In this document: positions 11,726 to 11,827 of the stretch, piece after piece
Layout of the letters: each line of letters opens with the position of its first letter
Numbering within the stretch: the stretch's first letter is position 1
From: an uncultured Pseudacidovorax sp.
Lineage (GTDB): Bacteria > Pseudomonadota > Gammaproteobacteria > Burkholderiales > Burkholderiaceae_C
DNA length: 33,373 nucleotides
Reading direction: 5' to 3'
Assembly (NCBI RefSeq): GCF_913773995.1
Contig: NZ_CAJYES010000135.1
Coordinates: 1-33,373 of the forward strand
Program-made: the position numbers and the translations under genes
Notes under the pieces: model-generated
What the model saw: the letters and a program-made list of their open reading frames with translations, nothing else
Told to the model about the DNA's origin: nothing
Databases searched by the model: none

Positions 11726-11827
11726 ATGTTTGTCGCCCGCCCGTTCGCCCCGAACACCGTGCCTGCCGCCCTGGCCAGCACCGCGCGCGCATCCATCACC
11801 AAAACCACGACGACCATTAAGGGCTGA
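11726..11827 (+). CDS. Candidate Thr/Ile/Lys-rich leader peptide of asd
   Basis: A 33-codon frame from ATG 11726 to TGA 11825-11827. Its first part is ordinary GC-rich sequence ([10 protein letters not shown]...). Its end reads [14 protein letters not shown]: codons ATC ACC AAA ACC ACG ACG ACC ATT AAG GGC, i.e. five Thr, two Ile and two Lys in the last ten codons. All three are products of the aspartate pathway fed by asd, 106 bp downstream. This is the layout of an attenuation leader such as thrL. No Shine-Dalgarno sequence is visible, and the likely transcription start coincides with the ATG, so translation may be leaderless. The function is inferred from composition, position and downstream RNA pairing; I know of no named family for it. 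Confidence 0.6.

Follow-up and report, generated by a model that had tools for sequence, protein, structure and literature searches.

As a class of control, ribosome-mediated attenuation is long known. In thrL, the leader of the enterobacterial thrABC genes, a short reading frame with Thr and Ile codons is followed by mutually exclusive helices and by an aspartate-family gene, and the attenuator acts via intrinsic termination. In the ermC-type translational attenuators, the position of the ribosome on the leader sets the pairing of the Shine-Dalgarno sequence (SD) of the next gene. Another RNA, the asd RNA motif of Lactobacillales (Rfam RF01732), is named for asd and lies upstream of it. This motif is listed in PMC2864571. 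The ermC leader has no amino-acid specificity (PMC2965389), and ilvB-II of Corynebacterium is reported to be a conserved upstream open reading frame (uORF) 5' of an amino-acid biosynthesis gene (PMC10272879).

The window considered here (the whole stretch of 33,373 nt that was analysed) carries asd downstream of leuB, and an earlier note had proposed that a Thr/Ile/Lys leader peptide lies upstream of asd as a candidate attenuator. This proposal is supported by the conservation of the leader, by codon selection confined to its tail, and by coevolving alternative RNA structures.

The leuB-asd gap and the spread of its codon run

The earlier note had read a gap of 317 nt between leuB and asd, a -10 element TACAAT and a 33-codon frame within it, and all three are confirmed by the sequence, the frame running from ATG 11726 to TGA 11827 with its stop 106 nt upstream of asd. 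The identity of asd is given by NCBIfam (asd_gamma, TIGR01745, E 1.2e-181) and by Pfam. From 5' to 3', the features are as follows.

11616: end of leuB, read from the sequence
11660..11687, + strand: inverted repeat GCAAAgCGGCCC-TGTC-GGGCCGtTTTGC 3' of leuB, found by eye
11712..11717, + strand: -10 element TACAAT, the ATG of the leader lying 8 nt further on
11726..11827, + strand: leader ORF of 33 codons, probably leaderless, with codons 24-32 (11795-11821) putatively regulatory
11798..11821, + strand: Thr-Lys-Thr4-Ile-Lys codon run; RNA region 1 consists of its Thr codons (about 11807-11815)
11833..11843, + strand: element A (region 2), CCTGGTTCGTC, which coevolves and folds with B
11858..11864, + strand: element C', CCTGGCC, candidate alternative partner of B, from C':B coevolution over the family
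11868..11878, + strand: element B (region 3), GACGAGCCAGG
11885..11894, + strand: predicted anti-Shine-Dalgarno sequence (anti-SD) AGCCCCTTCG, from folding of the window RNA
11919..11926, + strand: SD of asd, GAAAGGGC, from P:SD coevolution across the family (P being the anti-SD of most relatives)
11934..13064, + strand: asd, aspartate-semialdehyde dehydrogenase, the putatively regulated gene (NCBIfam and Pfam)

The inverted repeat at 11660..11687 is probably the terminator of leuB, a judgement made by eye; neither a terminator scan of 11617-11712 nor a mechanical scan called it. The mechanical promoter scan returned no full sigma-70 pair, a good -10 being present and a clear -35 absent. The leader peptide has no match in Pfam or NCBIfam, and Rfam at gathering threshold gives none in the window and none in eight loci, one of which is the window's own region.

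Upstream regions of asd were collected from 80 named loci, from 15 genomes of the same genus (own counted) and from 83 genomes of the window's family, representing 82 genera; 80 of the 89 family genomes with a match were fetched, the omitted ones being G000 and G006 (same genus, seen elsewhere), G363, G378, G409 and G413, together with the fragmentary G382, G384 and G398. A frame rich in Thr, Ile and Lys codons, with its stop 70-240 nt upstream of asd, is present in 71 of the 83 family genomes and absent from 12, so that frame and codons are both kept in relatives, the outcome on which the earlier note had made its proposal depend. Census distances are one nt too long for loci on the + strand. 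Among the named and same-genus loci, L031 and L054 are without the tail, and in L062 the DNA 5' of asd is too short to tell. The claim that such a run does not arise by chance also stands: in 80 family genomes, one per genus, the 11 codons ahead of each stop lying 70-240 nt 5' of asd were scored for Thr, Ile and Lys and the best set was kept. At least 7 of the 11 codons were of these three kinds in 56 genomes, whereas none of 4000 shuffles of this DNA that preserve its dinucleotides reached that number.

The same tail extends to other families. In a second one, the large-genome members of which we take to resemble Burkholderia and Cupriavidus, it occurs in 24 of 50 genomes (for example AIVITKTITTKTIIKR before the stop), and at least 7 of 11 codons are reached in 24/50 as compared with 0.16% of shuffles; these 50 were scanned out of 57 genomes with a match, G287, G310, G335, G339 and G340 being omitted, and G045 and G090, examined separately, have no tail. 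All three genomes examined from a third family carry it (for example SITTIITKKTKTIILV before the stop). From the order and class samples, 60 genomes were fetched (52 of 157 and 8 of 103 with a match, respectively), and six of these, spread over three families, have the tail; among the other families of both samples (55 genomes), one passes the chance test, and it belongs to the third family. Between families the nucleotides are largely different and the amino-acid choice is the same. Each of the 96 tails examined holds Thr, Ile and Lys, a count that is partly so by construction, as tails were picked on their summed Thr/Ile/Lys score, and Met, likewise made from the product of Asd, is present in 5 of the 96.

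At E <= 1e-4, an RNA region model of 83 positions, built from 56 members, matches 96 of 120 family genomes and has no match in 24; there is one match per genome in 95 and two in G440, matches being counted whatever gene lies 3' of them. The second match of G440 lies at C46:3395-3472 (E 9.8e-6), and this genome is the sole one of its kind among the 120. In G376 (C18:35086-35169), the match lies about 600 nt, not about 100 nt, upstream of asd, and an insertion may separate leader and gene there. The window's own genome has a strong model score at the asd site alone (E 1.6e-17); in the search for a second copy, the next match (E 0.037, on C33), overlapping a 369-codon ORF, was rejected.

The leader comes in two architectures. 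The earlier note had taken it for a stand-alone ORF, which is what it is in the window and in 36 of the 71 genomes with the tail; in the other 35, the codon run is the C-terminus of LeuB itself (GDAVVAAITKTITKG before the stop, as in an enzyme ending in MGDAVVAAITKTITKG). In a gene tree built from asd of 92 labelled loci (quick method, SH-aLRT), the architecture changed at least 4 times, changes being counted without direction and three of these four being forced by starred branches. Both forms are found within records titled Limnohabitans, within records titled Hydrogenophaga, and within the window's genus group. Two records titled Akkermansia muciniphila (L009) and Singulisphaera (L042) place with Comamonadaceae on this tree, and are probably mislabelled or mixed bins.

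Stand-alone leaders probably begin leaderless mRNAs, judging from the bases in front of them. A TANNNT motif (at least 5/6 match) lies 3-13 nt 5' of an in-frame ATG in 35 of 37, window included, and its spacing to the ATG is 6-8 nt in 29 of those 35; a random position in the same DNA passes this rule in 7.7% of cases, several ATGs having been tried per leader. With a -10 so close to the ATG, transcription would start at the ATG or a few nucleotides upstream of it. In the second family the strict rule is passed by 10 of 24, and by eye some others have a weaker -10 at the same distance. Leaderless mRNAs are documented in Burkholderia cenocepacia and Cupriavidus metallidurans (PMC4603805, PMC7563307).

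Helices downstream of the leader and the proposed output of control

In most family members, the elements 3' of the stop follow each other in the order A, P, C', B and SD, with consensus sequences CYGGUUCGUC for A, CCCCGG for C', GACGAGCCGGGG for B and GAAAGGGCG for the SD, while P, the anti-SD, reads ACGCCC, UCGCCC or GUGCGCCC. In most relatives the anti-SD thus lies between A and C', and in the window's clade it lies 3' of B.

Coevolution was measured on 72 sequences by comparing the duplex energies of segments from the same genome with those of segments swapped between genomes. Four pairings are in excess, each with 0/5000 permutations, on segments chosen on the same alignment as that tested: A with B (z -6.4), P with SD (z -6.1), the Thr codons of region 1 with region 2 (z -5.5), and C' with B (z -4.9). 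The control pairs Thr codons:SD (+2.2), A:SD (0.2) and C':SD (0.7) show no excess, nor does B:SD (+2.1). A sliding scan that presupposes no helices ranks the same four among the strongest; its z reaches +4.7 on the opposite side, which means that the null spread of z is wider than 1, and it also ranks P with the start of C'/B (z -5.4), a pair without explanation. Because B is common to both, A:B excludes C':B, and A:B and P:SD cross, so that together they would make a pseudoknot.

Among stand-alone members, A:B (z -5.0), region 1 with region 2 (-4.6) and C':B (-3.1) are in excess and P:SD is weak (-1.9, 184/5000); among LeuB-tail members, P:SD (-4.6) and C':B (-3.0) are in excess, A:B is weak (-1.6, 298/5000), and region 1 with region 2 stands at -0.3. 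P:SD duplexes of -6 kcal/mol or lower over a GG core are formed in 71 of 72 sequences, a weak test given that swapped pairs average -10.7. In the window's clade, where the anti-SD is displaced, the usual P:SD pairing is weak (-6.7 kcal/mol), and minimum-energy folds of the window itself do not show the C':B helix. Some LeuB-tail members (L025, L039 and L225) have, after the LeuB stop, an extra long helix around the C':B hairpin (GGACCCC with GGGGTCC; CTACAAACCC with GGGTTTG..GTAG), and the switch part looks rebuilt in them.

Two other pairings were tried and rejected: the leader end acting as a Shine-Dalgarno mimic that pairs with P (family-wide z 0.4), retained for the window fold alone with its displaced anti-SD, and a hairpin of the leader end and stop with the bases just 3' (weak, z -2.8). 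In the second family, a scan of 16 sequences (range -4.4 to +3.1) gives as its top two a pair of crossing helices, one around CCGUCGUGCCCGC and GCGGUCACAGCGGG (z -4.4), the other around UUCCCCGC and GCGGGGAA (z -4.3). By eye, the last codons and stop of loci such as L174, L173 and L293 in this family pair with the bases right after the stop (ACGATCA/TGATCGT, ACGATCT/AGATCGT and GCGATTA/TAATCGT), covarying with the stop codon used; this pairing is not among the top pairs of the second-family scan.

We think it probable, from the sequence comparisons, that a ribosome-mediated attenuator tunes the synthesis of Asd to charged tRNA-Thr, tRNA-Ile and tRNA-Lys, mainly via translation initiation. The ribosome would be translating a small leaderless ORF in genomes of the window's type, and the last part of leuB in those of the other type. 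With Thr, Ile and Lys plentiful, it would come to stand at the stop codon, covering the leader end and part of element A; B would then pair with C', the anti-SD with the SD of asd, and asd would be poorly translated. With one amino acid short, the ribosome would stall at the Thr/Ile/Lys codons, A (joined, in the clade of the window, by the leader end GGGCTG) would pair with B and the bases beyond it, and this state would keep the anti-SD off the SD, allowing asd to be translated. We infer the stalling, the response to Thr, Ile and Lys, and translation (not Rho-dependent termination) as the output.

Folding was modelled with the RNA free from 7 nt before the stop (ribosome stalled) or from 15 nt past it (ribosome at stop). 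In the 37 stand-alone members, the accessibility of the SD is 0.45 stalled versus 0.30 at stop (higher when stalled in 22, lower in 1; p 2e-6). The window's own values are 0.53 and 0.14. With element A shuffled, the difference is almost gone (0.34 versus 0.32). No such effect is seen among the LeuB tails (6 up, 11 down of 35), and the second family goes the other way (1 up, 16 down of 24). The modelled switch is supported for the stand-alone (window) type only; in the LeuB-tail and second-family members, it is the Thr/Ile/Lys sensor that is clear. Folded from 11824, the window RNA contains both A:B and anti-SD:SD; with the leader end left free, GGGCTG (11821-11826) finds a partner in CAGCCC (11884-11889), which extends A:B and leaves the SD unpaired. 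In the window's folds, then, A:B alone does not free the SD and its extension by the leader end does; what the ribosome must uncover in this clade seems to be the leader end more than A:B itself.

Could the same sensor act on transcription termination, intrinsic in some members and Rho-dependent in others, with the untranslated gap serving as Rho entry? We regard this as less likely than not. Of the 37 stand-alone members, 9 have a terminator-like hairpin 3' of the leader, versus 5.5% of shuffles, the SD-accessibility model fails for the LeuB tails and the second family, and thrL provides a precedent; but such hairpins are found in 1 of 35 LeuB-tail members (1.9% of shuffles) and in 0 of 24 of the second family (1.3%), two scans found no intrinsic terminator between leader and asd in the window, and the P:SD coevolution favours initiation. 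An intrinsic terminator as the general output is rejected on these counts, and intrinsic termination may add to control in some stand-alone members. The likening to thrL in the earlier note applies to the leader with Thr and Ile codons before an aspartate-family gene; the intrinsic termination of thrL carries over poorly, terminator-like hairpins being few and the RNA favouring initiation.

What the codon run serves

In LeuB-tail genomes, the Thr/Ile/Lys end might serve LeuB itself, in folding, in stability or as a degradation tag, its likeness to a leader being incidental. The tail does belong to a translated enzyme, and the folding model yields no switch in these members. We consider this very improbable. 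The LeuB end holds 5-11 Thr, Ile or Lys residues in 35/35 LeuB-tail genomes (type B), but 0-1 in the 20 of 36 stand-alone (type A) genomes with this end in the fetched DNA. It was likewise fetched for 10 of the 12 tail-less genomes, and holds 0-2 such residues there. The stop-to-asd distance, moreover, is similar in the two forms (medians of 105 and 96 nt), and the RNA 3' of the tail is plainly related in both, with its elements in common. What we hold likely is that, in about half of the genera with the element, the C-terminus of LeuB is the attenuator leader peptide for asd, that it was exchanged at least three or four times to or from a stand-alone leaderless leader with its own promoter, and that one RNA reads both main branches below aspartate semialdehyde.

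The stand-alone leaders allow the reading as codons to be examined on its own. For 41 non-redundant leaders of 33 codons each, differences in the last 11 codons amount to 0.11, 0.18 and 0.23 at codon positions 1, 2 and 3, and the synonymous share of changes is 31.6% in frame versus 5.8% and 15.3% in the other frames, whereas codons 2-22 of the same leaders give no coding-type signal. The last 11 codons alone evolve as coding sequence, which is the pattern expected if the codon run is the sole functional part. A frame rich in codons for the end products of the regulated pathway is present, and its codon signature and the LeuB tails point to its translation. The stand-alone leaders are also of steady length, about 33 codons (31-45, mostly 32-34, as in L227, L231, L249 and L253; the ATG lies at exactly 33 codons in 69 of 104), even where no sequence is shared over the first 22 codons. 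A spacing or timing need between the leaderless start and the codon run is thereby suggested.

That the run is conserved as RNA only, in a structured cis element with an untranslated leader, would agree with the pairing between region 2 and the Thr codons of stand-alone leaders and with the high conservation as DNA of AAGGGCTGA at the leader end in type A, but is highly improbable in view of the synonymous excess in frame and confined to the tail, of the 35 genomes in which these codons are the translated end of LeuB, and of the Thr/Ile/Lys composition kept by three families on largely different nucleotides.

The proposed asd leader among known systems

No asd attenuator in Burkholderiales and no enzyme tail used as a leader were found in the literature search, whose coverage largely excludes older and subscription work, making priority uncertain. 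As far as this search goes, three things are apparently new: an asd attenuator in this lineage, a triple Thr/Ile/Lys sensor, and a leader supplied by the end of a structural enzyme. If the proposed reading is true, a large betaproteobacterial lineage controls the enzyme at the branch point of Lys, Thr, Ile and Met synthesis by sensing three end products together. A leader peptide could then be the tail of a working enzyme and not necessarily a separate small gene, and leaders of this kind would escape a search for small leader ORFs. The locus also offers a natural series in which one sensor was rewritten several times, useful for finding which codons and helices matter.

Among uORFs, ilvB-II differs from the asd leader in its target gene and its lineage. 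The asd RNA motif RF01732 shares the name of the gene and belongs to another lineage, and neither the window nor seven related loci have an Rfam match. With thrL, the asd leader shares a short Thr/Ile leader, exclusive helices and an aspartate-family gene as the next gene; unlike thrL, it adds Lys codons, has asd as its first gene, is apparently leaderless or is the tail of LeuB, has an anti-SD and not a general intrinsic terminator, and matches no Rfam family. With the ermC type, it shares an SD that would be masked in one state by an anti-SD 5' of it (for asd, P:SD z -6.1 over 72 sequences, and -1.9 in stand-alone members); unlike in ermC, its amino-acid codons are the presumed sensor.
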